A stretch of 64,000 nucleotides of DNA from Desulfobacteraceae bacterium (GTDB lineage: Bacteria; Desulfobacterota; Desulfobacteria; Desulfobacterales; RPRI01): the NCBI GenBank assembly GCA_011391695.1, contig JAABQB010000012.1, positions 1 to 64,000 on the forward strand, in the 5' to 3' direction. The notes under the pieces are model-generated. The model was not told where the DNA came from, did not search any database, and saw nothing but the letters and a program-made list of their open reading frames with translations. Positions within the stretch are counted from its first letter, which is position 1, and each line of letters opens with the position of its first letter. The position numbers and the translations under genes were made by a program. Of this stretch, positions 29,592 to 60,041 are shown in pieces.

Positions 29592-29598
29592 ATATTAT

Positions 29599-29751: not shown

Positions 29752-29760
29752 TTATAGGAT

Positions 29761-29830
29761 GAATAAATAATGATTTTATTCGGTAAATGAATAAATATAT
29801 CTTGACTTCATCAAATGAACTTATTATTAA
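29761..29830 (+). promoter_or_regulatory. Candidate promoter and operator of the carboxylase operon
   Basis: GAATAAA and TTTATTC (29761-29767 and 29775-29781) form an inverted repeat with a 7-bp spacer. TTGACT at 29802-29807 and TATTAA at 29825-29830 are 17 bp apart. The TetR gene that closes the operon is a plausible regulator. The match is moderate. Confidence 0.4.
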
Positions 29831-29953
29831 CACTTCCAGCGCGTTCGTCGTAAACAGGTTGCCGTAAATCGGCATATTATCGCTTTTTTTGAACCCGTAA
29901 GCTTTAGACAACATACCTGTCCCGCAACAATCCGGCATAGTGGGAAAAACATC

Positions 29954-31570: not shown

Positions 31571-31587
31571 GCCTTTGGAAAAACGTC

Positions 31588-33075
31588 ATGTTTAAAAAAA
31601 TTCTTGTTGCCAACCGTGGAGAAATCGCCCTGCGTGTTATTCGCACCTGTCAGGAGATGGGGATTGCCTGTGTAGCTGTTTATTCGGATGCGGACCGGAA
31701 AGCGCTTCATACCCTGTGCGCTGATCAGGCAATTTATCTTGGCGTGTCGGAACCTGCCAAAAGCTATCTTGATATTGAGAAAATTATTGCAACGGCAAAA
31801 AATGCCGACGCCGATGCTATTCATCCGGGTTACGGTTTTCTATCGGAAAACGCCGGCTTAGCGAGGCGCTGCGAACAGGAAGGCCTGGTTTTTATCGGGC
31901 CCCCTTCCCGGGTGATTCAGGATCTTGGGGATAAGACCATCGCCCGGAAAATCATGCGAGATGGCGGGGTTCCGATCATTCCAGGGATGGGCTGTGCGGA
32001 GTCTCTCCTTGAAATCCTAACAGATGAAGCCGGCCGCATTGGATACCCCGTCCTGGTCAAGGCTGCCGCAGGCGGAGGCGGCAAAGGCATGCGGGTCGTT
32101 CATGAAGAAAATGAACTTGCCGATGCCTGCCGTCAGGCTGCAGGCGAAGCTGCGGCCGCATTCGGCAATGGCGAAATTTATCTGGAAAAATACCTGAAAA
32201 GGTCCCGTCACATAGAGTTTCAGATCCTTGCCGACAGCCTCGGAAACATTGTTCACCTTCTTGAAAGGGAATGTTCCATTCAAAGACGGCACCAGAAGGT
32301 AATCGAAGAGACACCTTCCACCGTCGTGACGCCGGATCTGAGAACCGCCATGGGGCAATCAGCCGTGGACGCGGCGCGTGCATCCGGATATGTCAATGCC
32401 GGAACAGTTGAATTTCTGCTTGATGAGGACGGGAAGTACTATTTTCTGGAGGTCAACACGCGGCTGCAGGTGGAGCATCCCATCACGGAAATGATCACCG
32501 GCATCGATATTGTTCAGCAGCAGATCCGGATTGCGGCGGGCGAGCCGCTTGGATTTACCCAGGCAGACGTTAAGGGCAGGGGCCATGCCATCGAGTGCCG
32601 GATTTATGGCGAGGATCCGGAAAACGGCTTTATGCCTTCTCCGGGGAAAATCACTTACCTGCAGGAGCCTTCAGGCCCTGGCATCAGGAATGACTGCGGG
32701 ATTTATTCAGGGTTTGATGTGCCGGTAGAATATGACCCAATCCTGTCAAAATTGATCGTATGGGCTGCCGATAGAAATCATGCAATTGCACGCATGAAAA
32801 ACGCTCTATCCAAGTATGTAATTCTGGGAATTAAAACGCCCGTTGCCTTTCTCATGGATGTTCTGGCTTCCGAACCGTTTCAGGAGGGGAAAACCTACAC
32901 TGATTTCATCACAACCCATTTTGAGGGTTGGCGGCAAAAGACAGATGAGGCCGACCTTGCGGTACTGGCTTATATCATAGATGAGATTGCCCGCCCGCGT
33001 AGCCCGCAGGCTCATATTACCGGGACAACCGGGCCGGCTACCCCGTGGCAGACGATAGGAAACTGGCGATTATAG
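31588..33075 (+). CDS. Biotin carboxylase subunit of the acyl-CoA carboxylase
   Basis: ATP-grasp enzyme that carboxylates biotin. The ATG at 31588 gives the standard start MFKKILVANRGEIALRVIRT; a GTG at 31567 overlaps the beta gene. Motifs: KAAAGGGGKGMRVV (ATP loop), EFQILAD, RECSIQRRHQKVIEE and the active-site FLEVNTRLQVEHPITE. At 495 residues it lacks the biotin carrier domain that MCC-alpha and PCC-alpha subunits have at the C-terminus; the carrier is encoded by the next gene instead. Confidence 0.93.
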   Translation: MFKKILVANRGEIALRVIRTCQEMGIACVAVYSDADRKALHTLCADQAIYLGVSEPAKSYLDIEKIIATAKNADADAIHPGYGFLSENAGLARRCEQEGLVFIGPPSRVIQDLGDKTIARKIMRDGGVPIIPGMGCAESLLEILTDEAGRIGYPVLVKAAAGGGGKGMRVVHEENELADACRQAAGEAAAAFGNGEIYLEKYLKRSRHIEFQILADSLGNIVHLLERECSIQRRHQKVIEETPSTVVTPDLRTAMGQSAVDAARASGYVNAGTVEFLLDEDGKYYFLEVNTRLQVEHPITEMITGIDIVQQQIRIAAGEPLGFTQADVKGRGHAIECRIYGEDPENGFMPSPGKITYLQEPSGPGIRNDCGIYSGFDVPVEYDPILSKLIVWAADRNHAIARMKNALSKYVILGIKTPVAFLMDVLASEPFQEGKTYTDFITTHFEGWRQKTDEADLAVLAYIIDEIARPRSPQAHITGTTGPATPWQTIGNWRL

Positions 33076-33161
33076 TATCAGTATTTCAAATATCGGGAAT
33101 CGAATTGCGAAATACGAACAGCCGAAATTGGTGTTTAAACGGTTTTCATGGAGACAGATGA

Positions 33162-33677
33162 ATGGATTACAGGCTCAGAATCGATAACACCGATTTTCCT
33201 GTTGAAGTCGAAGTTAACGAAGATTTGCAACTCAATGTCATGATAGGTGAGAAAAAATATATTGTCGATTATACGGTTATTTCAGATTTCTGTATTCACA
33301 TGGCTGTGGATAACGGCATCCGGTCCGGGAATATTAATGCCTTTACAGCTTATGGCGCTTACGGCAAAAATGTAGTTATCAACGGCCGATCCTATATGGT
33401 CCAGGATATTGACTCTCTTGCCCAGGCAGTCCGAAAGGGGCGGCAACCAAACCTTCCGAATGAGATTACACCGCCCATGCCTGCCGTGGTTGTGTCAATT
33501 CCCGTCTCCATAGGCGACCTTGTTAATAAAGGTCAGGCGGTCATTGTGGTGAGCGCAATGAAAATGGAAACCACCTTATGCGCCCCCTTTGACGGTACTG
33601 TTGTCAGGATAAATGCAGGCATAAATGATAAGGTCGTTCCCGGACAGATACTGGTGGAGATAGAGAAGGATGGATAA
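33162..33677 (+). CDS. Biotin carboxyl carrier protein
   Basis: The 171-residue protein ends in a biotinyl domain with the modified lysine in VSAMKMETT (about K128) and the family glycines (FDGTVVRINAGINDKVVPGQ). The first 80 residues resemble the BT linker domain that in fused subunits joins biotin carboxylase to the carrier. So this looks like an MCC/PCC-alpha C-terminal half split into its own gene. It lies 86 bp after the biotin carboxylase gene. Confidence 0.9.
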   Translation: MDYRLRIDNTDFPVEVEVNEDLQLNVMIGEKKYIVDYTVISDFCIHMAVDNGIRSGNINAFTAYGAYGKNVVINGRSYMVQDIDSLAQAVRKGRQPNLPNEITPPMPAVVVSIPVSIGDLVNKGQAVIVVSAMKMETTLCAPFDGTVVRINAGINDKVVPGQILVEIEKDG

Positions 33678-33678
33678 C

Positions 33679-33707
33679 CATCAGGCGACAGGCTGACAGG
33701 CTGAAGG
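33679..33707. repeat. GGCTGA-type word repeat
   Basis: GGCGACAGGCTGACAGGCTG followed by AAGG: a 9-bp unit in near-tandem. A relative, read on the other strand as AGGCTGAAGGCTGAAG, is at 2222-2239. Confidence 0.55.
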
Positions 33708-33732
33708 AAAAAGATAAAGGAGATAATTGATA

Positions 33733-34506
33733 ATGAATGATCCCCATCTGCTCTACCAGGTAAAAGATGGCATTGCCGGTTTTACCATCAATCGTGAAAA
33801 TCAGCGCAATGCCATAAGCATGGAGGCCCTTGACCTTTTTTACCGTTATCTGGACGAAGCTTCGGAGAACCCTGATGTCCGCGTGGTCTGTATTACCGGA
33901 ACCGGCAGCCGGACCTTCTGCGCCGGCGCAGATCTCGGAGCGGGTCTCGCCGGAAGCGACGGGATGACGGCTTTTAAGAAGTATGCGAATCTTTTAAAAA
34001 AACTGGCGGGTTTTCCGAAGCCGACCGTGGCTAGGGTTAACGGCTCCTGCGTTGCCGGAGGCACCGGTTTTATGCTCGCATGCGATATAGTTATTGCCAG
34101 CAGCAAAGCGACCTTCGGCACGCCGGAAGTGAATGTAGGGCTTTTCCCCATGATGATCGGAGCCTTGATTTTCAGAAATGTCCTCAGGAAAAAAGCCATG
34201 GAGATGGTGCTGCTGGGAGAAAAAATCAGCGCCCGGCAGGCCTTGGAAATGGGACTGATAACACGCATAGCTGATCCTGATGACCTGGATACGGAAGTGG
34301 AAAAGGTGCTGAACGTACTGGTTAGAAAAAGCCCCATCGGCATGAGGATCGGCAAGGAGGCCTTCTATGCCTCAGCTGATATGCCTTTTGAGCAGGCTCT
34401 GGATCTTCTGGCGGAAAAAATAGCGGATGTGGCCGCTACCCAGGATGCCCGTGAGGGAATCACGGCTTATCTCGAAAAACGGGAACCGCTCTTTACAGGG
34501 AAATGA
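33733..34506 (+). CDS. Enoyl-CoA hydratase/isomerase family protein
   Basis: Crotonase-fold protein, 257 residues from the ATG at 33733 (AAAGGAGA upstream). Oxyanion-hole segments are CAGADLGAGL and CVAGGTGFMLACDI; the usual catalytic Glu position lies in VNVGLFPMMIGA, where Gly-Leu-Phe-Pro replaces the common Glu-Xaa-Xaa-Gly arrangement. In MCC pathways this position is filled by methylglutaconyl-CoA hydratase. It overlaps the frame of the next gene's region by 4 bp, but the BKACE ATG is at 34536. Confidence 0.85.
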   Translation: MNDPHLLYQVKDGIAGFTINRENQRNAISMEALDLFYRYLDEASENPDVRVVCITGTGSRTFCAGADLGAGLAGSDGMTAFKKYANLLKKLAGFPKPTVARVNGSCVAGGTGFMLACDIVIASSKATFGTPEVNVGLFPMMIGALIFRNVLRKKAMEMVLLGEKISARQALEMGLITRIADPDDLDTEVEKVLNVLVRKSPIGMRIGKEAFYASADMPFEQALDLLAEKIADVAATQDAREGITAYLEKREPLFTGK

Positions 34507-34535
34507 TCCACAATATAACAGATAAGGAGAAAAAA

Positions 34536-35414
34536 ATGGCCTATCAGGATAAAGTGGTTGTCACCTGCGCCGTTACCGGCGTATTGACCGATCCGGGCCG
34601 CTTCAACGTGCCCGTGACTCCGGAACAAATGGCCGCGGCAGCTCGGCAGGCTTTCGACGCCGGCGCCACGATTGTGCATGCCCATTTCAGGTCACAACAA
34701 CCGGGAGCAGGCGCATGGCCCACCTGGGACCTGAAGGAGGTAGGCGATATCCTTGCCGCAATAAGGGAAAGGGTTCCCGAAATGATTATAAACATGAGCA
34801 CCGGAATGATAGGATCCGATATATCAGGGCCTCTTGCCTGCCTTGAGAAATTCAAGCCGGATATGGCGGCCTGCAACGCCGGTTCGCTGAATTATCTGAA
34901 GATCCGCCAGGATGGTGCCTGGGCCTGGCCCCCCATTCTTTTCGACAATCCGGTAGAAAAGGTTAAGGCGTTTCTGGATGTAATGACAGCCAATCATGTT
35001 ATCCCGGAATTTGAATGCTTCGACACCGGAATTGTGCGCAGTGTGGGCATGTACCAGGCCTGCGGCATGTTTAAAGGTGATCCCCATCTTTCATTTGTCA
35101 TGGGCGTCGATTCAGGAATGCCGGCAAGGGGTGATCTGTTGCCCATTTTAAAGGATGAACTTCCCCCGAATGCTCATTGGCAAGTCATCGCTACCGGGCC
35201 AGGCCGTGAAAAAATCTGGGATCTTCACCGAAAATGTATCGAACTCGGCGGGAATGTCCGAACCGGCCTTGAGGATACATTCTATCTCTCCAATGGCGAA
35301 AAGGCGATGGACAATGGGCAACTCGTGGATGCCCTGGTAAAAATCGTCCGCGATATGGGCCGGGAAGTGGCATCGGCCGCAGAAGCCAGGGTCATTATGG
35401 GAATAGATATTTAG
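34536..35414 (+). CDS. Beta-keto acid cleavage enzyme (BKACE, DUF849)
   Basis: Zinc-dependent enzyme family that takes a beta-keto acid plus acetyl-CoA to acetoacetate plus an acyl-CoA (Kce in lysine fermentation is the prototype). The 292-residue protein starts with VVVTCAVTG and has the zinc-binding HXHXR at H48/H50 (IVHAHFRSQQ) and the Glu ligand E246 in VRTGLEDTFYL. The start has AAGGAG 6 bp upstream. Its presence inside an MCC-type operon, where HMG-CoA lyase is normally found, is notable. Confidence 0.88.
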   Translation: MAYQDKVVVTCAVTGVLTDPGRFNVPVTPEQMAAAARQAFDAGATIVHAHFRSQQPGAGAWPTWDLKEVGDILAAIRERVPEMIINMSTGMIGSDISGPLACLEKFKPDMAACNAGSLNYLKIRQDGAWAWPPILFDNPVEKVKAFLDVMTANHVIPEFECFDTGIVRSVGMYQACGMFKGDPHLSFVMGVDSGMPARGDLLPILKDELPPNAHWQVIATGPGREKIWDLHRKCIELGGNVRTGLEDTFYLSNGEKAMDNGQLVDALVKIVRDMGREVASAAEARVIMGIDI

Positions 35415-35445
35415 AATTCAAGACTTGCAGAAAGGAAGATTATAA

Positions 35446-36597
35446 ATGGCCAAAGACCTGTATTTCAATAAGGAAGCCATAATGGTTCGTAATGCGGTAA
35501 GAGATTTTGTAAAAAAGGAAATCAATCCCTTTGTGGATGAATGGGAGGAAAAGGGGCTCATTCCGCTTCATGATCTGTTCAGGAAAATGGGGGATCTCGG
35601 ATTTCTGGGAATCCGCTACGACGCTAAGTATGGCGGCCAGGAGATGGATTTCTGGGCCGAGACGGCCTTTATCGAGGAACTGGGCGCCATTAATTGCGGC
35701 GGAGTTCCCATGGCCATAACGGTTCAAACTAATATGGCCACCCCGGCTATCGTCGAATTCGGCAGTGAATACCTTAAGGAAACCTATCTCAAGCCGGCCA
35801 TAGCCGGAGAAATGGTTGGCGCCATCGCCGTCACTGAACCGGGGGCAGGTTCAGACGTGGCCGCAATAACCACTTATGCAAAGCGTGAAGGTGACCATTA
35901 CATTCTAAACGGCTCCAAAACTTATATCACCAACGGAACCCAGGCCGATTTCCTGACTTTGCTGGCCCGTACCAGCGAAGCCAAGGGACATCATTCTTTT
36001 TCTCTGTTTGTGGTGCCCACAAATCTTCCCGGCTTTGTGGTAAGTAAAAAACTCGACAAGATGGGCATGCGCTCTTCGGACACGGCGGAACTGTTTTTCG
36101 ACGATATGAAAATACCGGCTGAAAATCTGATCGGTACCGAGGGCCAGGGCTTTATTCACCAGATGATGCAATTTCAGCACGAGCGGTTTGCCGTATTGCC
36201 CATGGCCTACGTTTCGTGCAAAAGTTTCATCGACAGGACTGCCGACCATCTCAAGAGGCGGGTGGTTTTCGGCAAACCCCTGATCAGCAAACAGGTGTTG
36301 CGGCACCGCATGGCCGAATGGCTTGCAGAAACCGAAGCATTGCGGCAGTTGACCTACCACATCGTACGCATGAAGGAAAACAGGATGGATGTCACCCAGG
36401 AGATATCGATGGGGAAGCTCCTTGCCGGGAACTTGATAAACAAGGTTACCGACGGGTGCCTGCAGATGCATGGCGGTATGGGATTCATGAACGAAACATG
36501 GATTTCCCGCGCCTACCGGGATTCCCGTCTGCTGGCCATCGGCGGTGGAGCCAGCGAGGTGATGAGTGAGATCATTTTCAAGATGGCCGGATATTGA
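35446..36597 (+). CDS. Acyl-CoA dehydrogenase, isovaleryl/citronellyl-type active site
   Basis: FAD enzyme of 383 residues that introduces the alpha-beta double bond. Signatures VTEPGAGSDVAAI and QMHGGMGFMNE are present. In most family members the catalytic Glu lies in the YEGT motif near the end; here that place reads LAIGGGASEV without Glu. A Glu is instead found in the FQHERFAVLPMA helix (about residue 245), as in isovaleryl-CoA and long-chain acyl-CoA dehydrogenases. This fits a branched substrate and the MCC-type carboxylase of the same operon. Confidence 0.9.
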   Translation: MAKDLYFNKEAIMVRNAVRDFVKKEINPFVDEWEEKGLIPLHDLFRKMGDLGFLGIRYDAKYGGQEMDFWAETAFIEELGAINCGGVPMAITVQTNMATPAIVEFGSEYLKETYLKPAIAGEMVGAIAVTEPGAGSDVAAITTYAKREGDHYILNGSKTYITNGTQADFLTLLARTSEAKGHHSFSLFVVPTNLPGFVVSKKLDKMGMRSSDTAELFFDDMKIPAENLIGTEGQGFIHQMMQFQHERFAVLPMAYVSCKSFIDRTADHLKRRVVFGKPLISKQVLRHRMAEWLAETEALRQLTYHIVRMKENRMDVTQEISMGKLLAGNLINKVTDGCLQMHGGMGFMNETWISRAYRDSRLLAIGGGASEVMSEIIFKMAGY

Positions 36598-36613
36598 GCG
36601 AAAGGCTTAAAAG

Positions 36614-37282
36614 ATGAAAAAGCCCTCTAAAACAAAGAAGCTTTCCGCAAGCGCCCTGCGAAGGGAGCGGGAAAAACAACTGCGGCGGCAATCGATTTTA
36701 AGCGCCGCCGAAATCCTCTTTGCGCACAATGGCTACCGTAAGACAAAGATTGAAGATATTGCCGAAAAAGCCGAGGTTTCCGTGGGAACGGTCTACGGTT
36801 ATTTCCAAAACAAGGAAGAACTTCTCGTGGCCGTGCTGGATGATATAGGCTTGTACATCCGCAAGCTGGCGGGAAAAGCTTTCACAGATGCCGATTCCGT
36901 GCTTGAGGGGATCGAACGCGCAGGTATGGCCTTTTTTGAGGAGCTGTGCCGTTCATGTCCGGAAAAGGCGCTGCTGCTGTATGACGAATCAATCGGTACC
37001 GGCGATCAGTTTATAAAAGCCCGCAGGAATTTCATGCTCAAAATGACGGAGGATGTTCACAGCGCACTTATGAAAGGAAAGGATGGCCTGGGCCTAAAAT
37101 TCGCCTCCGGTATTTCTGCTGAGGTGATAGCCGTATGCACCACAGCCATTTTCGTATGGCTGGGCATGTATTATAAAATCTGGCAAAAACAGCCCGGCGA
37201 TATCAATGCCATCGGCCGGGAAACGGTCACTTATATTGTGGGCGGGATTAAAAGCTCGATAATTCTTGATAATTACAGATAA
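36614..37282 (+). CDS. TetR/AcrR family transcriptional regulator
   Basis: DNA-binding repressor of 222 residues: an unusually basic N-terminal arm (residues 1-25), then an HTH domain with IEDIAEKAEVSVGTVYGYFQNKEELL, and a variable ligand-binding domain. Its position at the end of the acyl-CoA operon suggests that it senses a pathway CoA ester. Its stop codon abuts the ATG of a small RHH gene with no gap. Confidence 0.9.
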   Translation: MKKPSKTKKLSASALRREREKQLRRQSILSAAEILFAHNGYRKTKIEDIAEKAEVSVGTVYGYFQNKEELLVAVLDDIGLYIRKLAGKAFTDADSVLEGIERAGMAFFEELCRSCPEKALLLYDESIGTGDQFIKARRNFMLKMTEDVHSALMKGKDGLGLKFASGISAEVIAVCTTAIFVWLGMYYKIWQKQPGDINAIGRETVTYIVGGIKSSIILDNYR

Positions 37283-49198: not shown

Positions 49199-49513
49199 CT
49201 AAGCCGCTTTTAACGGCTGAATTTTCATGATTTCATTATTATGAGATTGCTGCGCTTCCCAAAGATCATAAGCGCGTTGCAAGTTTAGCCAAAATTCAGC
49301 CGTATTCCCGAACAACCGGCTCAGACGAAGAGCCATCAGCGGCGTTAGCGCGCGAGTCTCCCGCAATAGTTCATTTATTGTCTGACGAGAAACACCGATG
49401 GCTCCGGCGAGTCCGGCGACAGTCAGCTTATAATCAGGGATAAAATCTTCTCTCAGCATTTCTCCCGGATGTGTCGGCTTTACTTTTCTTTTTCCATTGT
49501 AGTTAATGCTCAT
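49199..49513 (-). CDS. higA: HigA-type antitoxin (XRE/VapI family)
   Basis: DNA-binding antitoxin of 104 residues: THPGEMLREDFIPDYKLTVAG and an HTH with GAIGVSRQTINELLRETRAL and LRLSRLFGNTAEFWLNLQRAYD. It follows the toxin gene on the same strand by 13 bp, with GAGG before its ATG. This toxin-first order is typical for higBA. Confidence 0.92.
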   Translation of the reverse strand: MSINYNGKRKVKPTHPGEMLREDFIPDYKLTVAGLAGAIGVSRQTINELLRETRALTPLMALRLSRLFGNTAEFWLNLQRAYDLWEAQQSHNNEIMKIQPLKAA

Positions 49514-49526
49514 ATATTTACCTCGT

Positions 49527-49808
49527 TTAATGATAATCAGTTATTTCAACATCGTATGCCTCTCCGTCAACAAACGCGAAACATATCCTCCATTGATCAT
49601 TTATTGATATTGCATACCGGCCTGCCCTGTCGTCCTTTAAGGCATGCAGGCGATTACTGGGCGGCACCTTTAAATCATCGAGGCTTGTTGCCAGGTCAAT
49701 ATTTTCAAGACGCCTTACCGCTCTTTTTAGAATATCCGGCTGAAATTTCTTTGATTTTCCAGTAACAAATAAATCATAAGTATGTTTATCGGCAAATGTT
49801 TTTATCAT
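49527..49808 (-). CDS. higB: HigB-type toxin (RelE/ParE superfamily)
   Basis: Predicted ribosome-dependent mRNA interferase of 93 residues: MIKTFADKHTYDLFVTGKSKKF start, then DDLKVPPSNRLHALKDDRAGRYAISINDQWRICF, the HigB pattern. It is complete. No SD-like site lies upstream; the sequence before the ATG is C-rich. Confidence 0.92.
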   Translation of the reverse strand: MIKTFADKHTYDLFVTGKSKKFQPDILKRAVRRLENIDLATSLDDLKVPPSNRLHALKDDRAGRYAISINDQWRICFAFVDGEAYDVEITDYH

Positions 49809-50019: not shown

Positions 50020-50814
50020 TCACGCAAGCAGGCCTTTTCTGAAAGCCTTTATGTATCCCATGCAATACTCGTCCTTTCCCATCAGCATCAGTGAGGCCCG
50101 AAGGGCGCCGAGGAGTTGTTTGTCTGCGGGATCGAGTATTGCCGCGTCGAGGCCGCGCGCAACAGCCTCTGCGAGAAATGTACGATTCACCAATTTGCGG
50201 TTGGGAAGTCCGTGTGAGACATTGGTAAGGCCGCATACGGTATGCACGCCCTGAAATTGTTTCATGATTTCCTCTATTGCATCCAGAGTGGCGCATGCGG
50301 AGTTCGAATCTGCTCCAACCGGAAAGACCAGCGGATCGATGTATAGGGCATCAATGCCGATGCCGGATGAAGTGACCTTTTCGATCAGACGGCCGGCTAT
50401 TTCAACTTTTTCGGCCGCAGTTCTGCCCATCCGGTTCCTGGTCTGGCACAGGCCGATAACGGTCGCCCTGTAATCGATAACAAGAGGAAGGATGCCATCC
50501 AGGCGGGTTGGTTCGAGGGTGATTGAATTGATCATCGGGGGTCTTTTTACATGTGAAATAACTTTTTTTATGACCTCCGGGTCAGGGCTGTCGATGCATA
50601 ATGGAAGTTCCGTGACCTCCTGCACCGCTTCGATAATCCACTTAAGGTAATCTGCTTCTTTCTCCATGAAAGCAGCAGCATTTAAATCTATATAGTCAGC
50701 CCCGGCATCTCTTTGTGCTTTTGCCTCATTTTGAATGTATTCCCTGTTTCCGGAGGCTATGGCGTCGGCGATTTGTCTGCGGGAGGAGTTGATTTTTTCA
50801 CCGATGATGATCAT
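50020..50814 (-). CDS. Pterin-binding methyltransferase (methyl-THF:corrinoid type, MtvA/AcsE-like)
   Basis: Predicted methyltransferase II that passes the methyl group from the corrinoid protein to tetrahydrofolate. The 264-residue TIM barrel starts IIIGEKINSSRRQI and has the pterin site pattern GADYIDLNAA, PLCIDSPDPEVI, NSITLEPTRL and CGLTNVSHGLPNRKLVN. It overlaps the corrinoid protein gene by 4 bp. The family includes AcsE and the MT2 proteins of acetogen O-demethylases. Confidence 0.87.
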   Translation of the reverse strand: MIIIGEKINSSRRQIADAIASGNREYIQNEAKAQRDAGADYIDLNAAAFMEKEADYLKWIIEAVQEVTELPLCIDSPDPEVIKKVISHVKRPPMINSITLEPTRLDGILPLVIDYRATVIGLCQTRNRMGRTAAEKVEIAGRLIEKVTSSGIGIDALYIDPLVFPVGADSNSACATLDAIEEIMKQFQGVHTVCGLTNVSHGLPNRKLVNRTFLAEAVARGLDAAILDPADKQLLGALRASLMLMGKDEYCMGYIKAFRKGLLA

Positions 50815-51479
50815 GCCATCCTCTCCTGCTGCCGGGTTTTATTTTTCAGGCTGAAAGCCTTGTTTACAGCCTCAAAAGCGTCTTTTGCGTACCCATCGGC
50901 GCCGATTTTGTCTGCAAACTCCTGGGTCACCGGTGCACCCCCGACCATGATTTTGAGTTTATCCCTCAACCCGGCCTTCCTGATCGCTTTTATGGCCTCG
51001 TCGGCCTCCGGCATTGTGACTGTAAGAAGTGCGGACATTCCGAAAATATCGTAATTGCCTTCTGCAATCGCCGCGCATATTTTTTCGGGCGAAACATCGA
51101 CTCCCAGATCGGTAACCTCCCACCCGTTTCCTTTCAGCATCATCATGACGATGTTCTTGCCGATGTCATGGATATCCCCCTTGACTGTTCCGATGAGATA
51201 TTTACCTGCATGGAAATTCGCGCCTCCGGCATTCAGCAGAGGTTCGAGTTCGGCCACTGCCGCCTGCATTGCCTTGCCTGAAATAAGCAGTTCCGGCAGG
51301 TAATACTCACCGATGCTGAAGAGTTCGCCGACTTTCCTTATTCCGGGCATGAGTCCATCTTCAAGGACAGACCTGGCTGTAAGGCCTTTTTCTACCGCTT
51401 CCCTGCAAAAGCTTATGGCATCCTTATCCTTACCTTCAATGATGGCCCTGGTCAGTCTTTCGAAAAGTTCATTACTCAT
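50811..51479 (-). CDS. Corrinoid (B12-binding) methyl-carrier protein
   Basis: The 222-residue protein has an N-terminal helical cap and a B12-binding domain with the cobalt ligand H104 in DIHDIG (GTVKGDIHDIGKNIV), followed by LGVDVSPEKI and SALLTVTMPEADE. This is the MtbC/MtvC-type carrier. The frame is open to 51563, but the ATG at 51479 has AGGAGC 6 bp upstream and fits the family. It is co-transcribed with the pterin methyltransferase and divergent to the activation genes. Confidence 0.92.
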   Translation of the reverse strand: MSNELFERLTRAIIEGKDKDAISFCREAVEKGLTARSVLEDGLMPGIRKVGELFSIGEYYLPELLISGKAMQAAVAELEPLLNAGGANFHAGKYLIGTVKGDIHDIGKNIVMMMLKGNGWEVTDLGVDVSPEKICAAIAEGNYDIFGMSALLTVTMPEADEAIKAIRKAGLRDKLKIMVGGAPVTQEFADKIGADGYAKDAFEAVNKAFSLKNKTRQQERMA

Positions 51480-51601
51480 AATAGCTCCTAATAATGAGAT
51501 AAATGATGAGTTATTTGCATAACGCCCCGTTAAAGATCGGATCGGGATATGCCTGTCTAACAAAAGCCGTCATGTGCGTCAAGGCAGATATTCTCTTTCA
51601 A

Positions 51602-51632
51602 TTGACACACACCGGTCAATGTCCTATATAAT
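51602..51632 (+). promoter_or_regulatory. Promoter of the activation genes with overlapping inverted repeat
   Basis: TTGACA at 51602-51607 and TATATA/TATAAT at 51625-51632 (17-19 bp spacing). ATTGAC and GTCAAT (51601-51606, 51615-51620) form an inverted repeat that overlaps the -35, a likely repressor site. The promoter lies between the divergent corrinoid and activation genes. Confidence 0.65.
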
Positions 51633-51641
51633 TTTTCGATG

Positions 51642-51703
51642 TTTTTAGACAGGATGAACAGGATGAACAGGATGTTGCCTGCCAGCCGGAAGCTGGACAG
51701 GCA
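51642..51703 (+). repeat. GACAGGAT word repeat and leader hairpin
   Basis: GACAGGATGAACAGGATGAA then CAGGAT gives three near-tandem units (about 51648-51673). It is followed by the stem TTGCCTGCCAGC / GCTGG-A-CAGGCAA (51674-51703), a 12-bp hairpin with one bulged base. All lie in the presumed leader of the activation gene. It has no B12-box (GCCACTG), so it is not a standard cobalamin riboswitch. Confidence 0.6.
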
Positions 51704-51715
51704 ATAGAGGAATCT

Positions 51716-52402
51716 TTGAAAGACACGAGTATCGCAGTAAAATTCAATTTTAAAGATCTGTCGGTTACTCCGGAGGATGTTGCGCGGTATGCAGGCGGAA
51801 GCAATTACAGGCCGGATGCGGAAAGAAAAGCGCTTGCCGGAGATATTCTCAAGCGTGCGTCGGCCATGGCTCAGCCGGCTTTCGTTTATGCAGCACACCA
51901 TATCAATGCCATAGATCCTGAACAAGGCGTCTCTCTGTTTCTTCCTCGAAACAATCTTGATGCCGGTACGGTTTTTATTGTTGCCACTGTCTGTACAATC
52001 GGGCCTGAACTGGAAAATGAAACCTCAAAACTCATGGCACAGGGCAAGGCTCTGGATGCTCTTTTTCTGGATGCGGCAGGTGTTGCTCTTCTGGAAGCTC
52101 TGTCCGATGAAGCCTACGCACATCTTAAAAATGAAGCCGCAAAGGAAGACCTTTATGCAGGTTGCCGGTTTGGGCCTGGTTACGGAAACATCCCGATAAA
52201 CGCTCAGAAATCTCTGTTTGAATCCGTGAATCCGGAGGCCATAGGTGTTCAACTCAAGGCAAGCGGCATCCTTTACCCGTTAAAATCCTTATCTTTCTGG
52301 GTAATGTGGAATTCCCAGCCGCCGCCCGAAGGCAGCGCATATAAATGTCAAAACTGCACACTGAATAACTGTGCGTACAGGATAGCAGCGAAGTCGCAAT
52401 AG
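51716..52402 (+). CDS. MetH-activation-domain-like protein with C-terminal Cys cluster
   Basis: The 228-residue protein resembles the vitamin B12-dependent methionine synthase activation domain found as a separate protein in anaerobes (VATVCTIGPELENETS, DAAGVALLEALSDEAY, CRFGPGYGNIP). The C-terminus has a Cys-X2-Cys-X4-Cys motif (C211, C214, C219) that could bind a metal cluster. The TTG start is decided by GAGG 5 bp upstream. It lies 7 bp before the RACE gene and may act in re-reduction of the corrinoid. Confidence 0.82.
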   Translation: MKDTSIAVKFNFKDLSVTPEDVARYAGGSNYRPDAERKALAGDILKRASAMAQPAFVYAAHHINAIDPEQGVSLFLPRNNLDAGTVFIVATVCTIGPELENETSKLMAQGKALDALFLDAAGVALLEALSDEAYAHLKNEAAKEDLYAGCRFGPGYGNIPINAQKSLFESVNPEAIGVQLKASGILYPLKSLSFWVMWNSQPPPEGSAYKCQNCTLNNCAYRIAAKSQ

Positions 52403-52409
52403 GGAGCAG

Positions 52410-54080
52410 ATGCAAAGATCAAACACAGAAAAATGCATGATCAGGATATTGCCGGATGGTAAATCTTTTCAGGCAGACAGAGGAGAATCACTGCTTGAAG
52501 CGCTGACTGGCGCCGGAATTTTTCTTAAGTCCAACTGCGGCGGAAAAGGGCTGTGCGGGAAATGCCTTGTTCGGATACCCGAACCCTCGCCGAAGAGCAT
52601 TTCCCCGCCTGAAGATGCCGAAGTCCGGCTCCTGGGCGAAAAAGAGCTGAAAGCCGGATACCGTCTGGCCTGCCTGGTTACGGTATTTAACGATCTGTCT
52701 GTTGAAATTCAGGGAAACTCGCTCCTTAGTCCAGAAGTAGTTCAAAAAGGCCCGATGATACTTCCTGAATCCATTCCTTCCCGAGCACTGCCTGAAGGCA
52801 CAGCCGACCGTTATGGTCTTGCCATTGACCTTGGAACCACCACCATAGCCGTTTACATCTGCGATCTTGTTTCAGGAAAGGTTGCCGGTTCCATCTCCGT
52901 GAGAAACCCCCAGGCGATGCTCGGTGACGATGTTATGAGCCGAATCAGTGCTGTCGCCGAAAAACCAGAGAATTTATCACGTCTTCAAAAGATAGCTGTT
53001 AAGGCGATCGAGTGGAGCGTGACAGCCCTCTGCCGGTCAAGCCATATTGCTCCCGGGCATATCAGGTCGGCAGTTGTCGTTGGCAACAGCACGATGATCC
53101 ATCTTTTCGCCGGTGAAAATCCTTCATCTATCGGCATTTTCCCTTACGCACCTCTCTTTGTCGAAGATAAAACATTCAAGGCAGGATCAGTAGGATTTGA
53201 GTTCAATTCCTCTGCCGATATCTTCACGCTGCCGCTCATTTCCGGTTTTCTCGGTTCCGACATTATCTCCGCTGCCCTTGCAACAGAACTGGACAGCGCC
53301 GCTATCGGAACCATGCTGGTAGATATAGGGACAAACGGAGAGGTAATGCTTATGGGTCAAAACGGCCTCTTTGCCACATCCTGCGCGACCGGCCCCGCTT
53401 TTGAAGGTGCGACGATCAGGCACGGGATGCATGCCGTTTCGGGAGCAATCGACGCGGTGAAAATCGATAGAATAAACGGCGTCGTCACCTGCTCGGTTAT
53501 TCAGAAAGGCCCTGACGCCCTCAGCCTGCCATCCGGGATCTGCGGATCAGGAGTTGTCAGTGCGGTTGCCGAACTTTACAGGGTTGGTCTCGTATCAAGG
53601 GATGGCCGTATCAATCGTAATTCAGGTTCACCCCTCATTCGATATGACGAAACAGGAGTTCTGGAATTCGAGCTGGTTTCCACTGAAAAAGCTGAAACCC
53701 GGCAGGCGATTACCCTTACCCAAAAAGATATCAGGGCAGTTCAGCTGGCAAAAGGGGCGCTGCTTGCCGGGATGGAGATGCTCTGCGCTGCAGCAGGTTT
53801 GACCGTGCCAAAAAAGCTTCTGGTGGCGGGTGCTTTCGGCACATTCATTGATAAAAAAGACGCCTTGACTATAGGGATGTTTCCCGATCTGCCGGAAGAA
53901 AATATTACTGTGATTGGAAACGGCGCCGGGGCAGGGTCGGTTCTTGCTCTTTTTAACCCGGCGCTTTTTGATAAAGCAAAGGGGATGGCAAGTTCAGTAA
54001 AAGTTCTGGATCTTGCATCCATGCCTGAATTTCAAAAAATATTTTTAAGCTCGTTACAATTTCCTGAATTGGTTTCATAA
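52410..54080 (+). CDS. RACE protein: reductive activator of corrinoid enzymes (DUF4445)
   Basis: ATP-dependent activator that reduces inactive Co(II) to Co(I). Residues 10-95 form a [2Fe-2S] domain with C43, C49, C52 and C88. After a linker an ASKHA ATPase region begins with YGLAIDLGTTTIAVY near 132, VVVGNSTMIHLF and LLVDIGTNGEV-type MLVDIGTNGEVML, and ends with KKLLVAGAFGTFID. The 556-residue length and domain order are those of RamA-independent acetogen and SRB activators. Two ATGs (52410, 52437) are possible. Confidence 0.93.
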   Translation: MQRSNTEKCMIRILPDGKSFQADRGESLLEALTGAGIFLKSNCGGKGLCGKCLVRIPEPSPKSISPPEDAEVRLLGEKELKAGYRLACLVTVFNDLSVEIQGNSLLSPEVVQKGPMILPESIPSRALPEGTADRYGLAIDLGTTTIAVYICDLVSGKVAGSISVRNPQAMLGDDVMSRISAVAEKPENLSRLQKIAVKAIEWSVTALCRSSHIAPGHIRSAVVVGNSTMIHLFAGENPSSIGIFPYAPLFVEDKTFKAGSVGFEFNSSADIFTLPLISGFLGSDIISAALATELDSAAIGTMLVDIGTNGEVMLMGQNGLFATSCATGPAFEGATIRHGMHAVSGAIDAVKIDRINGVVTCSVIQKGPDALSLPSGICGSGVVSAVAELYRVGLVSRDGRINRNSGSPLIRYDETGVLEFELVSTEKAETRQAITLTQKDIRAVQLAKGALLAGMEMLCAAAGLTVPKKLLVAGAFGTFIDKKDALTIGMFPDLPEENITVIGNGAGAGSVLALFNPALFDKAKGMASSVKVLDLASMPEFQKIFLSSLQFPELVS

Positions 54081-54199
54081 AGAGCAAATCAGGTTTCCTT
54101 TTTATTCTGACTCCTGAATTCTGGCTTCCGGCTCCTGAATAGCTACTGAATTAAAACCTATCTGCGTTCATCTGTGTGAATCTGTGGCCGAATTGTTAC

Positions 54200-55495
54200 T
54201 TATTTTGCAGTTTCCATATTTTCAACAAGCTTCGCGTCCGAAACATAGAAAAAAGAGCCGATAAAAAAGAGAATCCCTGCCAGCAGGGCAAACAGCGGCA
54301 GAAAAACCATGGCTGTTTCGAGCCCGAAGGCATCAGAGAGGGCGCCGATGGCAGGAGGCCCCAGCGCGCTCCCTAATATATGCTGAACGATAACGCACAA
54401 GCTTAACGATACCGCCCTTACGCCCGGGTGGACAACATCCTGGGTCACAGCAACGGCGGCAGGCACAAAGGCAACCGCTGCAATACCGGCTGCCAGTAGA
54501 ACTGCGTATTGAATTGCCCCGCGATAAAAACTGAATGCGATAAAAAGCAGAATTGCCGTCACGCAGGAAGAAATTGAAGGGAAAAGGAGCCTTGCGTTGC
54601 TCCTGCTTTTAAGCCATCTGTCCGCAAGCCAGCCTCCCAGAGGAGCTCCGATTATGGCAAGGAGCATTACCACGCCCCCCTTTGTGGAAGCCTTGCTCAT
54701 GGAGATTCCTTCCACTCTCTGAAAATAGCTTGGAAGCCATGTCAGCATGGCCGTTGTAACGAATGTATTGGCCGCAAACGCGAGGTTGTTGAATATGAGA
54801 GTTTTGTTTCCCAGCAGATGCTTTGCGATTTCGTTCCACCGCATTCTGGCTTCTCTCTTTTCATCTCCGCTGCCTTCAAGCCTTGTAAGCGCTATTGTCT
54901 CATAATCCCTTGCATAGAAGAAGAGCAATGCAACGATAACGCCCGGCAGGGCCACGATACCGAATGCATGCCGCCAGCCGAAACGCTCCGCGATGATCCC
55001 GCCAAGGGCGATGCCGAGCGCGCTTCCCAACGGTATAGATGCATTCCATATTCCCAAAAACTTCGCCCTTTTCTCTTTTGGAAAAAGTGCCGATATCATG
55101 GCGGTTCCGCCGGGTGCATAGCCTGCTTCACCAAGGCCGATGGCGGTTCTGGCCGCAAACAGCTGCCCGAAGTTTTTCGTGAAAGCGCACGCAAAGGTGG
55201 CAATACTCCACAATACGGCCATCAATCCGATGCTTTTTATTCTGCTCCACCTGTCGATAAGAATGGATACAGGCAGGGTAAAGATGAGAATAGACCAGTA
55301 AACCGCGGAAACAAGCAGGCCGCACTGGGTGTCCGTGATTCCCCATTCCGCTTTGAGAAAAGGAAAAAGCGAGACTATGACCAGCCGGTCTATATAGTCG
55401 AACATGTATAGCAGAAAGAGCAATGTAAAGATGACGTAAGGTGATGATATCAATGCCCGGGTTTTCGGATTCGGAGAATTATTAATAGAGTCCAT
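54200..55495 (-). CDS. MFS transporter
   Basis: Twelve-helix inner membrane carrier of 431 residues with the MFS motif between helices 2 and 3 (PVSILIDRWSRIKSIG) and the antiporter-like GLGEAGYAPGGTAMI segment. The pattern resembles the ACS/spinster-like group (organic anion and lipid carriers). Its start overlaps the end of the UroD-type gene by 14 bp, so it may export the demethylated product or import a co-substrate; this is inference. An earlier ATG is at 55513. Confidence 0.88.
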   Translation of the reverse strand: MDSINNSPNPKTRALISSPYVIFTLLFLLYMFDYIDRLVIVSLFPFLKAEWGITDTQCGLLVSAVYWSILIFTLPVSILIDRWSRIKSIGLMAVLWSIATFACAFTKNFGQLFAARTAIGLGEAGYAPGGTAMISALFPKEKRAKFLGIWNASIPLGSALGIALGGIIAERFGWRHAFGIVALPGVIVALLFFYARDYETIALTRLEGSGDEKREARMRWNEIAKHLLGNKTLIFNNLAFAANTFVTTAMLTWLPSYFQRVEGISMSKASTKGGVVMLLAIIGAPLGGWLADRWLKSRSNARLLFPSISSCVTAILLFIAFSFYRGAIQYAVLLAAGIAAVAFVPAAVAVTQDVVHPGVRAVSLSLCVIVQHILGSALGPPAIGALSDAFGLETAMVFLPLFALLAGILFFIGSFFYVSDAKLVENMETAK

Positions 55496-56561
55496 ATTTT
55501 TTTGTGGCCTCAAACATTGTTATGCAGTTTTCAGGGTTGACTCCAGGATGAAGTGAGTTGGAATCGCAGAGAATGTATCCTCCGCCTTTTGCCGCAACAT
55601 CAATGGCATGTTTTACTGCTGCATCGACCTGCTCCGGGGTGCCGGAGGGGAGAAGTTCCTTGCAGTCGATATTGCCCAGAAGGCAGATTTTATCCCCGTA
55701 CTTATCCTTAGCCTTTTTCAGATCCATGCCGGCTTGAGGTTCCAGGGGATTAAGTCCGTCATATCCTGAATCGATAAGGATATCCATGATCGACCAGAGA
55801 TTGCCGTCGCTGTGCCGCACAACCTTCAGGCCAAGTTCATGGGCACGGTCAACCAGTTTCCTGTTGTACGGATTTACAAACTCCATGAAATGTTTAGGAG
55901 AGATCAGGAGGTTGTTTGTTGCTGCAATATCATCTTCTACGACAAGTACATCAATGCCGGCAGCGGCAAGCATGTCAAGCTGCTTCAGGTTGTATTCCGT
56001 CACCATGGCCGAGATGATATGAATGAATCCGGGCTCCTGATAAAGCTTTAACATGTAGTTTTCCATACCCGTCAGTCGCCAGCTGTGAACAAAGACCCCG
56101 CGCATCAGCCAGAAAAGGGCGGTATTCCCCTTGAACCGGTCCCTGGCAAGATCAAGCAAAAGCAGATGCCCGCGATTCGGTTCAGGAGCATGAAAACTAA
56201 TAAGATCACCGGAATCTATCAAGGGGTGGCCGATAGGAACAGGAAGGCCGTGAGGATTCCGCCTGTATATGACATCCCAGTCATCCTTTACGTCTTTCTC
56301 GTTTATTTCTTTTTCGTGACCAATCTCAAAAGATGTGAATCCGTCCACGTCAAACACTTCATGAAGAAGAAAAAGAGTATCCAGCAGTTTCATTTTCTCA
56401 GAATCGTTCATCTCATGAAACTGCTTGGATTCAGGCAGGCCGTCGGTGATATGTTTTCCGATACCAATGATAGGCGCTTCATTAATTCCATGAATGTAAA
56501 GAGGAACACGGTCAGGCTGCTTTACATTCAGGGCGGTTATAATCCGCTCTTTGCCGTTCAT
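55482..56561 (-). CDS. UroD-family cobalamin methyltransferase-like protein
   Basis: Predicted methyltransferase I that demethylates the growth substrate onto the corrinoid protein (uroporphyrinogen decarboxylase family, as MtaA/MtbA and the UroD-type demethylases). The 359-residue protein starts MNGKERIITALNVKQPDRVP. Possible zinc ligands are H250 (RHSDGNLW), C300 and C332 (YILCDSNSLHPG). The common His-X-Cys motif is His-Ser-Asp here. It lies between the TRAP permease and MFS genes on one strand. A true UroD is unlikely without other heme genes and with this motif. Confidence 0.82.
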   Translation of the reverse strand: MNGKERIITALNVKQPDRVPLYIHGINEAPIIGIGKHITDGLPESKQFHEMNDSEKMKLLDTLFLLHEVFDVDGFTSFEIGHEKEINEKDVKDDWDVIYRRNPHGLPVPIGHPLIDSGDLISFHAPEPNRGHLLLLDLARDRFKGNTALFWLMRGVFVHSWRLTGMENYMLKLYQEPGFIHIISAMVTEYNLKQLDMLAAAGIDVLVVEDDIAATNNLLISPKHFMEFVNPYNRKLVDRAHELGLKVVRHSDGNLWSIMDILIDSGYDGLNPLEPQAGMDLKKAKDKYGDKICLLGNIDCKELLPSGTPEQVDAAVKHAIDVAAKGGGYILCDSNSLHPGVNPENCITMFEATKKYGLY

Positions 56562-58654
56562 GTCGGCAGAATTCCGGTTGTCATTTTTATTTTCCTGGCG
56601 TCCGTCCAGTTTTTTATAACAATAAGGCTGGAGATCACTCCGGCGACTATATTCATGTTAACATGCGGATAGAACAGCAGAATGGCACAGATTCCTGTAA
56701 TGATTCTCTCCGGAATGGAAAGCGATTTTATAAAATATCCCACCACCGCCACATTCAGGTATATTACGGCCATAATGGAGAAAAGAAAACGAATTGCAAT
56801 AAAACAGAACGCCTCAAATCCGTGCATGGTCTGAAGAACCGGAAGGATCAGAAGAGCGGTTCCGCTGAAGGAAAGAATGAAAGTAAGACCGATAAAATAT
56901 TTGGGAAGAGCCACGCGCGCGGCAAACACGCCGGTTTTTATCGGATCCGTGCCCATGACAGAGCTGGCGGCATAGGCGGAAAGCGCAACCGGAGGTGTGA
57001 CTTCGGCCAGGACTGCAAAATAAAACAGAAACATATGGGTTGCGAGAAGCGCTGCCTCTTCAGGAATGCCGTTTAGCATGGCCAGTTTCTGAATGGTCGG
57101 CGCGGTCAGGGCTGAAGTCAGTACATAGGTTGCGATCGGCGGAACACCCATGCCGAGAATCAGGCTGAAAACGCCGGTAAAGAGCGTGGCCAGCAGAATA
57201 CTGCTGCCGCTGATATCCATCAGGATGATCGAAAACTTGGATGCCAGCCCGCTGATAACCATCATGGACATGATCATATTGGCGGCTATGACGGCACTGG
57301 CGATCGGCAGAAGACCGATGATCCCCTCTTCCAGTGCTTTTATTAAATTTATGAAGGGTGGCCTGAGGCTGGGATCTGCATAGGCAAAAAGAATAAAAAG
57401 AAACGTCGCGGCGGTGACCGTAATGTTTATGGAGAAGCCTCTGTAAATGAGAAAGATGATGAAGATGATGGGAATGAAGACATAGCAGTACCGTAAAAAG
57501 TATGAGAAATCTATAAGAGATGAAATTTCCAGTTGCGGCAGTTTCTGCTTTTTAACATAAAGCTCGTTGTATATGACAATGCCAAGGAGATAAAGAAGCA
57601 TGGGCCCGATGGCCATGACTATGATCGACGAATAGGGAATTGACAGAAGTTCGACCATGATAAAGGAAATCGATCCCATAACGGGAGGCGTGATATAGGC
57701 GATTGACCCGACGGTGGCGATCACACCGGCAGCCACAAGCTTGTCATATCCCACCTTTTCAAACAGCGGCTTGGTCAGTGTTGCCACAAACTGTGTGTCG
57801 GCTGCCCCTGACCCGGAAAACATGCCCATCATCACGGCCATGATCGAGCAGGATCGTCCGGGAGATGCCGGGCTCCTGCCGACAAACAGCAGCGCAATGT
57901 TTGCGATGATCTGACCGAAATTCATGCGCGTGACAACTGCCCCCAGTGTAGTGAAATAGATCAGATACTTGAGAGATACGCCCGTAATCGATCCAAAAAT
58001 ACCGGCTTCGGTTTCGCAGTACATTTTTCCCAGCACCATATCGAGATCAAAACCCGGATTGGAAAAGAGACCTGGAACATGGTTGCCGTAAAGATTATAC
58101 AGCAGAAAGATCATCACAAGAGTCGGCATTATAGGACCGCTTAACCGGAAAATGACCCCGAGAATCAACAATATCTCGCTGAAAGACATGATCATGTCCC
58201 ACGGCTCCGGCATGACGGATCGATAAATCAGTGTTTCATAATTTACCACCAGATAAACAAACGGGAGAAAGCTGAACAGCGCGCATACAATGTTGGAAGG
58301 TTTCTGCAACGCTGGTACCAGGGTTGGCAGCATGGTGCAGGCCCAGATAATGACGCCAAACAGCTTCAACGACATTGAAATGTCCAAACGAAGAAATTCG
58401 ATCATGAACACAACGGTCATTACTGCAAGTGGTATGCCGCCGAATTTATGCCGTGGCTTGATCCGCACAAAGCTGAGCAGATACCCAAGAAGCGCAACCA
58501 AAAATACATGCGTGGCCCGTTGAACCTGGGTCAGATCCAGAAGGGACAAGCGCAAGTCGGCTAATGGCGTGTAGGGATGAACAACGAGATATAGATGATA
58601 GAGCGTCCCTATAACAGCTATAATTGTCACCAGCCTGCGAACTACAGAGTCCAT
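56558..58654 (-). CDS. TRAP transporter fused permease (DctQM type, TAXI class)
   Basis: Inner membrane permease of 698 residues. The first about 170 residues carry four helices (small-subunit DctQ-like), the rest about twelve or more helices of the large DctM type, with GRSPASPGRSCSIMAVMMGMFSGSGAADTQFVATL and GMGVPPIATYVLTSALTAP. Fusion is typical for TAXI systems. It overlaps the UroD gene by 4 bp and DUF1850 by 13 bp. Confidence 0.92.
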   Translation of the reverse strand: MDSVVRRLVTIIAVIGTLYHLYLVVHPYTPLADLRLSLLDLTQVQRATHVFLVALLGYLLSFVRIKPRHKFGGIPLAVMTVVFMIEFLRLDISMSLKLFGVIIWACTMLPTLVPALQKPSNIVCALFSFLPFVYLVVNYETLIYRSVMPEPWDMIMSFSEILLILGVIFRLSGPIMPTLVMIFLLYNLYGNHVPGLFSNPGFDLDMVLGKMYCETEAGIFGSITGVSLKYLIYFTTLGAVVTRMNFGQIIANIALLFVGRSPASPGRSCSIMAVMMGMFSGSGAADTQFVATLTKPLFEKVGYDKLVAAGVIATVGSIAYITPPVMGSISFIMVELLSIPYSSIIVMAIGPMLLYLLGIVIYNELYVKKQKLPQLEISSLIDFSYFLRYCYVFIPIIFIIFLIYRGFSINITVTAATFLFILFAYADPSLRPPFINLIKALEEGIIGLLPIASAVIAANMIMSMMVISGLASKFSIILMDISGSSILLATLFTGVFSLILGMGVPPIATYVLTSALTAPTIQKLAMLNGIPEEAALLATHMFLFYFAVLAEVTPPVALSAYAASSVMGTDPIKTGVFAARVALPKYFIGLTFILSFSGTALLILPVLQTMHGFEAFCFIAIRFLFSIMAVIYLNVAVVGYFIKSLSIPERIITGICAILLFYPHVNMNIVAGVISSLIVIKNWTDARKIKMTTGILPT

Positions 58655-59037
58655 AACAGATCGACCTCCAGGCAGCCGTCTTGAATACTAAAGGTATAAA
58701 AACCCATTTTTAGAATGATTCCTTTCATTGAACAGAACTTCAAATGATTTGTGGACTCACCGGAAACTGCATGATTCAGGTCGTAAACGCCGTGAGAATA
58801 ATATGCCTCGGTCGTTTCATCTGCTGAAACAGAAAAATTCTGAAATTGGCCGCGGATGGTGAACCGGATGACAACAGGCTGACCGGTCACCGAATTCACA
58901 AAACAAATTGAGCCCGTCTGCCAGCGAAAAAGAACTGCCAGACGGGTTTCATTTTCTGTTCGAATCACAGCTGGCTTGACCAGTAAAAGAAACATGGCCA
59001 GCGCTATTACGCATATCGTTGCAAACAGTTTGCGCAT
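58642..59037 (-). CDS. DUF1850 protein of TAXI-TRAP operon
   Basis: The 131-residue protein has an N-terminal membrane segment (about 5-25) and a short domain with RWQTGSICFVNSVTGQPVVIRFTI and EAYYSHGVYDLNHAVS, the DUF1850 pattern found next to TAXI-TRAP genes. Its function is unknown. It follows the binding-protein gene by 8 bp. Confidence 0.85.
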   Translation of the reverse strand: MRKLFATICVIALAMFLLLVKPAVIRTENETRLAVLFRWQTGSICFVNSVTGQPVVIRFTIRGQFQNFSVSADETTEAYYSHGVYDLNHAVSGESTNHLKFCSMKGIILKMGFYTFSIQDGCLEVDLLWTL

Positions 59038-59045
59038 TCAGCTTG

Positions 59046-60041
59046 CTATTTGACCAGGCCTTTTTCCCTGAAGTATTTCACCGCGCCGGGATGAAACGGA
59101 ATAGCTGTCTTGCCTACAAACTTGGCTGAGCTTTCCGGTGTGGTGTCCCTGGCCGGTTTTACCGAAGAGCGAAGAGTTTCGACATTTTCAAAAACCGCTT
59201 TGACGGTTTTATATGCCAGATCTTCAGGCGTGGAGTCCGGACAGACAAACATGTTCCAGAAAGCCAGTGTAGGCGTATCTGAAGCAGTTCCATATACTTC
59301 CTTTTTGATGATCAGGCTGTCGGCCAGGCCTGAAAATTCTTTCATAAAAGCAGCCACACCGGGATCGGTTTCCGGAAGCGGAACCAGAAATAGGTTGAGG
59401 CCTTTGCGTTTGAGGGTATTGGACAGTTCGACGATGGAACCTGTTGGGAGACCGCCGGACCATACATAGGCATCAAGCGTGCCATTACCGAGACCCTCAT
59501 CCGACTCCTTGGCCCCCAGTTTCTCCCATTTCTTGAATTTGTTAGGATCTATCCTGGCCGCTTTCAGCAGATTAAGAGCCGTAAATTCGGTTCCGGACCC
59601 TGGAGCGCCGGTTGAAACGCGTTTGTCCTGCAGATCCGTGAGTTTTGTAATTCCGGATTTATCTGTTGTTACAATGTGCAGATAATTCGGATACATCATC
59701 CACATTATGCTGGCCTTGGCCGGTTTTTCCGCAAATTTTTCATGCTTGCCCGAAACGGTGAAATAGGCCGTATCCGGGAGAACCGTGGCGAAAAAGTAGG
59801 TTCCCTTGGCTGTATCTGTTTTATCCCGTATCAGAAGCATGTTATCCACAGATGCGGCAGTCTGAATAGCGGTTGCTGCCGCTACATTATTTTTGTTGAG
59901 TATTTCGGATATCTGGGTTCCGTAATAATAATATACGCCGCCGATTCCACCTGTTGCAATCACCACCCTGTTGCCCTCTGCATAAAGATTGACCGTGGTT
60001 ATAAGAAATAGTGCCAGTGCCATAATAACAATTTTTTTCAT
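59046..60041 (-). CDS. TAXI-family TRAP transporter solute-binding protein
   Basis: Periplasmic binding protein of 331 residues. Signal peptide (about 1-22), then the TAXI signature VVIATGGIGGVYYYYGTQIS and GAPGSGTEFTALNLLKAARI. Genes for the permease follow. AAGGAG lies 6 bp before the ATG. Such proteins bind small organic acids or amino acids; the methyltransferase genes around it suggest a methylated compound. Confidence 0.93.
   Translation of the reverse strand: MKKIVIMALALFLITTVNLYAEGNRVVIATGGIGGVYYYYGTQISEILNKNNVAAATAIQTAASVDNMLLIRDKTDTAKGTYFFATVLPDTAYFTVSGKHEKFAEKPAKASIMWMMYPNYLHIVTTDKSGITKLTDLQDKRVSTGAPGSGTEFTALNLLKAARIDPNKFKKWEKLGAKESDEGLGNGTLDAYVWSGGLPTGSIVELSNTLKRKGLNLFLVPLPETDPGVAAFMKEFSGLADSLIIKKEVYGTASDTPTLAFWNMFVCPDSTPEDLAYKTVKAVFENVETLRSSVKPARDTTPESSAKFVGKTAIPFHPGAVKYFREKGLVK

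Follow-up and report, generated by a model that had tools for sequence, protein, structure and literature searches.

A putative Mto-like corrinoid O-demethylase cluster and an operon-sharing, probably separate TAXI-TRAP importer in a Desulfobacteraceae bacterium

In a 64,000-nucleotide stretch of DNA from a Desulfobacteraceae bacterium (the window), genes for corrinoid-dependent methyl transfer stand together with genes for a TAXI-TRAP importer, which raises the question of what the methyl donor is and whether the importer brings it in. All open reading frames of positions 50,020-60,041 are present where a sequence-only reading had placed them, and most of its gene list is upheld by family models: the TAXI protein, permease, UroD protein, MFS carrier, corrinoid carrier, pterin methyltransferase and RACE activase all match their families, while the call of a MetH-activation-like protein is weak. 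A first minus-strand unit comprises the TAXI solute-binding protein of a TRAP transporter, with glutarate or another C5-dicarboxylate as its predicted ligand (59046-60041; TIGR02122, 231.9 bits, cut-off 84), a small DUF1850-type protein (58642-59037), a fused TRAP permease (56558-58654; TIGR02123, 358 bits, cut-off 321), a UroD-superfamily corrinoid methyltransferase and putative O-demethylase, here called MT1 (55482-56561; PF01208, 100.9 bits, cut-off 23.9), and an ACS/Spinster-like MFS carrier (54200-55495; MFS_1). TAXI protein and fused permease, each above its cut-off, together make up a TAXI-TRAP transporter; the DUF1850-type gene has no Pfam-A match and is recognised by its position between the two and by relatives of 47-85% identity. 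On the plus strand lie the small MetH-activation-like gene (51716-52402; PF02965, marginal at 25.9 bits with a cut-off of 25) and a RACE/Ram-type reductive activase of corrinoid proteins with 2Fe-2S and ASKHA parts (52410-54080; PF14574, PF17651, PF00111), whose RACo domains score 256 and 165 bits. A second minus-strand unit encodes the corrinoid carrier protein (50811-51479; PF02607, B12-binding_2, and PF02310, B12-binding) and a methyl-corrinoid:tetrahydrofolate methyltransferase, MT2 (50020-50814; NF005719, 316 bits, cut-off 259).

As the two minus-strand units flank the plus-strand pair, the genes form one cluster and not one operon. Within the units, the junctions described earlier are found as claimed: permease and MT1 overlap by 4 bp (ATGA), and MT1 and MFS carrier by 14 bp, provided that the latter starts with the ATG at 55,495. 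Carrier and MT2 genes likewise overlap in an ATGA. With its start at 51,479, the carrier has the histidine of its DIHDIG motif at position 104, as had been read, in agreement with the cobalamin-binding pattern DxHxxG. The 4-bp overlap is not kept in the two congeners L020 and L024, both of which have a gap of about 34 bp at this junction. Elsewhere in the window, a HigA-like antitoxin and RelE/HigB-like toxin pair is read from the sequence at 49199-49808 (minus strand), an acyl-CoA pathway cluster with AMP-ligase, carboxyltransferase, biotin carboxylase, a BKACE beta-keto acid cleavage enzyme and acyl-CoA dehydrogenase occupies 27888-37282 (plus strand), and from 61506 onward (plus strand; L025:1507-5109) a small lipoprotein-like gene is followed by one for a 1,200-aa TPR-CHAT protein.

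The corrinoid methyltransfer system is complete, as the earlier reading held, with MT1, carrier, MT2 and activase encoded together. The genome (2.8 Mb, 98% complete) has one URO-D protein, MT1, one PF02607 protein, the carrier, and no MttB, so that MT1 and the carrier are, by elimination, each other's sole candidate partners. There being no second URO-D protein, a classical HemE was not found in this genome, nor, with a single PF02607 protein, was a MetH carrying that domain. The genome also encodes CODH/ACS and four proteins of the MetF family. The CODH/ACS locus has RACE-like and pterin methyltransferase genes of its own and, these being only 28-33% identical to those of the window, the activase and MT2 described here represent a separate set. 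The carrier matches structures 1y80 and 4jgi. The best PDB match of MT2 is 4o0q, which PMC13222342, citing Sjuts 2015, gives as the MT2 of a Desulfitobacterium hafniense O-demethylase.

The sequence-only reading could match the mix of a UroD-type MT1 with a TAXI importer and an MFS carrier to no described substrate. The role set has in fact been described, as the Mto operon has the same layout: in Methermicoccus shengliensis and Archaeoglobus fulgidus (AF_0006-0013), a UroD-superfamily O-demethylase (MtoB), a corrinoid protein (MtoC), a pterin-linked methyltransferase (MtoA) and an activase (MtoD) are clustered with a regulator as well as MFS carriers (PMC8630106, PMC8359953), MtoB being a member of the UroD superfamily (PMC13222342). 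The likeness is one of gene set, with MtoB compared by description only, and the window differs in having a methyl acceptor that is probably tetrahydrofolate and in the additional TAXI-TRAP genes. A second resemblance is to the aryl-methyl-ether O-demethylases of acetogens and Desulfitobacterium (Odm, Vdm, MtvB), which share the four-component scheme; it rests on that scheme and on MT2 rather than on the MT1 sequence, and the donor here is putative and need not be aromatic. The linkage seen in Mto and Odm, of a UroD-type MT1 with carrier, MT2, activase and MFS gene, occurs both in the window and at L056 in a Desulfobacula MAG, where a complete operon runs Corr-UroD-MFS-PterMT-RACE-TetR.

We therefore favor, with moderate confidence, an Mto-like O-demethylase corrinoid system served by the MFS carrier, the glutarate-type TAXI importer being a separate module that shares the operon. 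In this scheme the MFS carrier would import a methylated compound, most likely methoxylated and probably anionic, or else export the demethylated product. MT1 would transfer the methyl group, presumably from an O-methyl donor, to the Co(I) form of the carrier, its corrinoid bound through H104, and MT2 would hand it on to tetrahydrofolate. Methyl-tetrahydrofolate can feed the Wood-Ljungdahl pathway, and in this genome it may enter that route towards CO2 or acetyl-CoA. RACE would re-reduce carrier that has been oxidized to Co(II). TAXI, DUF1850 and TRAP proteins, encoded ahead of MT1, would form an importer of their own, most likely for glutarate, a C5 dicarboxylate, whose genes lie in the same operon as MT1 in this genus.

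The relatives of MT1 show which partners have been kept. Scanning GTDB genomes for relatives at least 53% identical yields 60 loci, with 53-90% identity, from about six phyla; the groups represented are, among others, Desulfobacterota, Myxococcales, Bacteroidota, Neomarinimicrobiota, Spirochaetota and SAR324. Partners were counted by tblastn within 6 kb of each MT1 orthologue, with gene calls made using an amino-acid composition score. The MFS gene is found at 32 of the 60 loci, a corrinoid protein at 18, TetR at 6, PterMT and RACE at 4 each, and TAXI at 2; where at least 1.2 kb of downstream sequence is available, 30 of 48 loci have the MFS gene. The nearest solved structures of this carrier are HnSPNS (6e8j), SPNS2 and DgoT. 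Surveyed for a hint of the donor, the neighborhoods of the MT1 loci hold nothing else that recurs widely besides MFS carrier and corrinoid protein. Nearly half of the orthologues have no MFS gene found nearby, including all Bacteroidota and Neomarinimicrobiota loci, and many have no nearby corrinoid protein. Six loci from these two groups (L064, L065, L069, L070, L072 and L074; 59-62% identity) have neither an MFS nor a corrinoid gene nearby. The UroD tree has very long outgroup branches and was read only within the clade. There, members with a linked MFS gene are scattered among those without, and the four sequences from Bacteroidota group together as a clade, next to a Desulfobacterota sequence that is linked to an MFS gene. 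MetH-activation-like relatives of 26-27% identity accompany MT1 orthologues at L035, L036, L041 and L047. At L035 and L036, a 650-aa UroD-corrinoid fusion with the domain order of CmuA adjoins the MT1-MFS pair, and after it comes a pterin methyltransferase that shares 73-76% identity with that of the window.

Some neighbors bear on the nature of the donor. Alcohol or hydroxy-acid enzymes stand beside MT1 orthologues at a few loci each, namely SDR proteins (L054, L063, L082), a 2-hydroxyacid dehydrogenase (L091) and a Zn-alcohol dehydrogenase (L077). These dehydrogenases favor an O-methyl donor, since demethylation would leave a hydroxyl group, in an alcohol or hydroxy acid. It is nonetheless possible, if rather unlikely, that the cluster is not an O-demethylase and that MT1 uses another donor: an N-methyl compound, a sulfonium compound such as DMSP, or a halomethane. 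The UroD superfamily does include halomethane and thiol enzymes (PMC13222342, PMC10418091), the best profile scores of the carrier are to the amine-type models MtgC and MtbC, though all fall below cut-off, and homocysteine methyltransferase-like genes stand beside three MT1 orthologues (L038, L041, L045). However, known N-methyl MT1s belong mostly to the MttB family, which is absent here, halomethane gases should not require a carrier, and the H-x-C motif of thiol enzymes is missing from MT1. A search of the literature on DMSP demethylation by sulfate reducers found no gene. There is a resemblance, too, to the CdmBCA chloromethane system of Acetobacterium dehalogenans, which likewise combines a UroD-superfamily MT1 with a carrier and an MT2; the similarity is confined to C-terminal sequence (E 1.7e-06), and the window has transport genes in addition.

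The sequence-only reading had taken the tight joining of importer and MT1 genes to suggest that the transported molecule is the methyl donor, which would then be a methylated acid demethylated by MT1. The spacing in the window is indeed tight, the order TAXI-DUF1850-TRAP-UroD is kept in three congeners, as a shared substrate would have it, and TAXI is absent from the six congeners without this MT1. Beyond the genus the picture is different. TAXI relatives at E < 1e-120 occur in 18 of 389 sampled genomes of the class, and the 15 that lie outside the genus (58-92% identity) all lack an MT1 orthologue; a history shared by MT1 and TAXI is on this co-occurrence rejected outside the genus. Conservation of the UroD-TAXI linkage, by which that reading had proposed to be judged, is confined to 2 of the 60 MT1 loci, both in congeners; none of the loci from other genera has TAXI next to MT1. 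A phytochelatin-synthase-like gene is divergent from TAXI in one congener (L032:93-854, minus strand).

What TAXI relatives often adjoin are glutarate and glutaconate genes: of the 13 loci read outside the genus, seven have one or more of those encoding glutaconate CoA-transferase, glutaryl-CoA dehydrogenase and glutaconyl-CoA decarboxylase. Five of the 13 have a pair of CoA-transferase genes for glutaconate (1poi, E 3.3e-70), and three have a set in which a non-decarboxylating glutaryl-CoA dehydrogenase (NF045552, 777.6 bits, cut-off 470) is joined by the alpha subunit of glutaconyl-CoA decarboxylase (3gf3, 1pix, E ~1e-224). At the closest locus, L119, with a TAXI protein 92% identical to that of the window, glutaconate CoA-transferase genes directly follow the permease. 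The genome itself encodes, on contig C61, a glutaryl-CoA dehydrogenase (787 bits, cut-off 470) adjoining glutaconyl-CoA decarboxylase alpha, with none of these genes linked within the window. Characterized TAXI proteins bind glutamate or alpha-ketoglutarate (PMC11574862), and the TAXI-TRAP systems of this kind, VcGluP for glutamate and the P. mirabilis system for alpha-ketoglutarate, likewise pair a TAXI protein with a fused permease and take C5 dicarboxylate ligands; unlike theirs, the glutarate ligand proposed here is a prediction from gene neighbors. Taken together, the genes beside relatives, the pathway genes of the genome and the C5 ligands of characterized proteins point to glutarate as the most likely cargo. 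Counting against it, no glutaryl-CoA dehydrogenase above cut-off is found in two congeners with the TAXI-MT1 arrangement, though their assemblies are just 85-87% complete. A literature search for TAXI proteins with corrinoid or glutarate brought up nothing direct. The importer thus probably has a substrate unrelated to the methyl donor, and import of the donor by TAXI-TRAP is improbable. Very few TAXI transporters have been assigned ligands, and the glutarate prediction is clear and easily testable.

The remaining alternatives concern the identity of MT1. Its best named kin and best fold match is the MtaA/CmuA family, TIGR01463, with 84.1 bits, far below the cut-off of 235.4, and the AF2 model (pLDDT 94.2) is nearest to MtaA (4ay8/4ay7, TM 0.78) and then to HemE. 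Among its PDB matches none is labeled an O-demethylase, plasmid-borne characterized relatives give weak matches only, and a fold search of viral structures returned two matches at E < 0.001, both remote. Across 51 aligned orthologues, H-x-D (H250-S-D252) stands in every one in place of the H-x-C metal motif of MtaA, and N335 is invariant. This position, which by motif spacing would be that of the third zinc ligand (Cys) of MtaA, is His in HemE and aligns with Asn in CdmB. CdmB is reported to be without metal (PMC13222342). The H-x-D motif and the Asn argue against thiol chemistry and against HemE, and for a protein predicted to lack the thiolate site, a role as MT1 fits better. By these residues and the model scores, MT1 is neither HemE nor a typical thiol methyltransferase. 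It is thus very unlikely that MT1 is an MtaA-like methyl-corrinoid:thiol methyltransferase recycling methyl-sulfur or selenium, the role suggested for type 1 mlp clusters, despite MtaA being its closest family and structural neighbor; such clusters have by definition at least two Mlps and no tetrahydrofolate methylase (PMC10418091), whereas this genome has one UroD protein with MT2 next door. A true uroporphyrinogen decarboxylase, for which PF01208 membership and fold would speak, is rejected on scores (hemE model TIGR01464, 30.1 bits with a cut-off of 302.95) and residues, bearing out the view of the earlier reading.

The cluster is therefore a corrinoid system of known kind with an uncharacterized MT1 clade, found in about 60 genomes. 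We tentatively raise the possibility that this clade, with its unusual H-x-D/N active site, has a donor preference new to the UroD superfamily, such as aliphatic methoxy acids or O-methylated sugar acids instead of methoxy-aromatics of the lignin type, and that it has spread, along with an MFS carrier dedicated to it, among sulfate reducers and other bacteria of sediments. Little is known of the genes by which sulfate reducers carry out demethylation in anoxic sediments, and a well-bounded MT1 clade offers a testable donor. One of its members comes from a named strain whose genome is complete, Desulfosarcina widdelii PP31.
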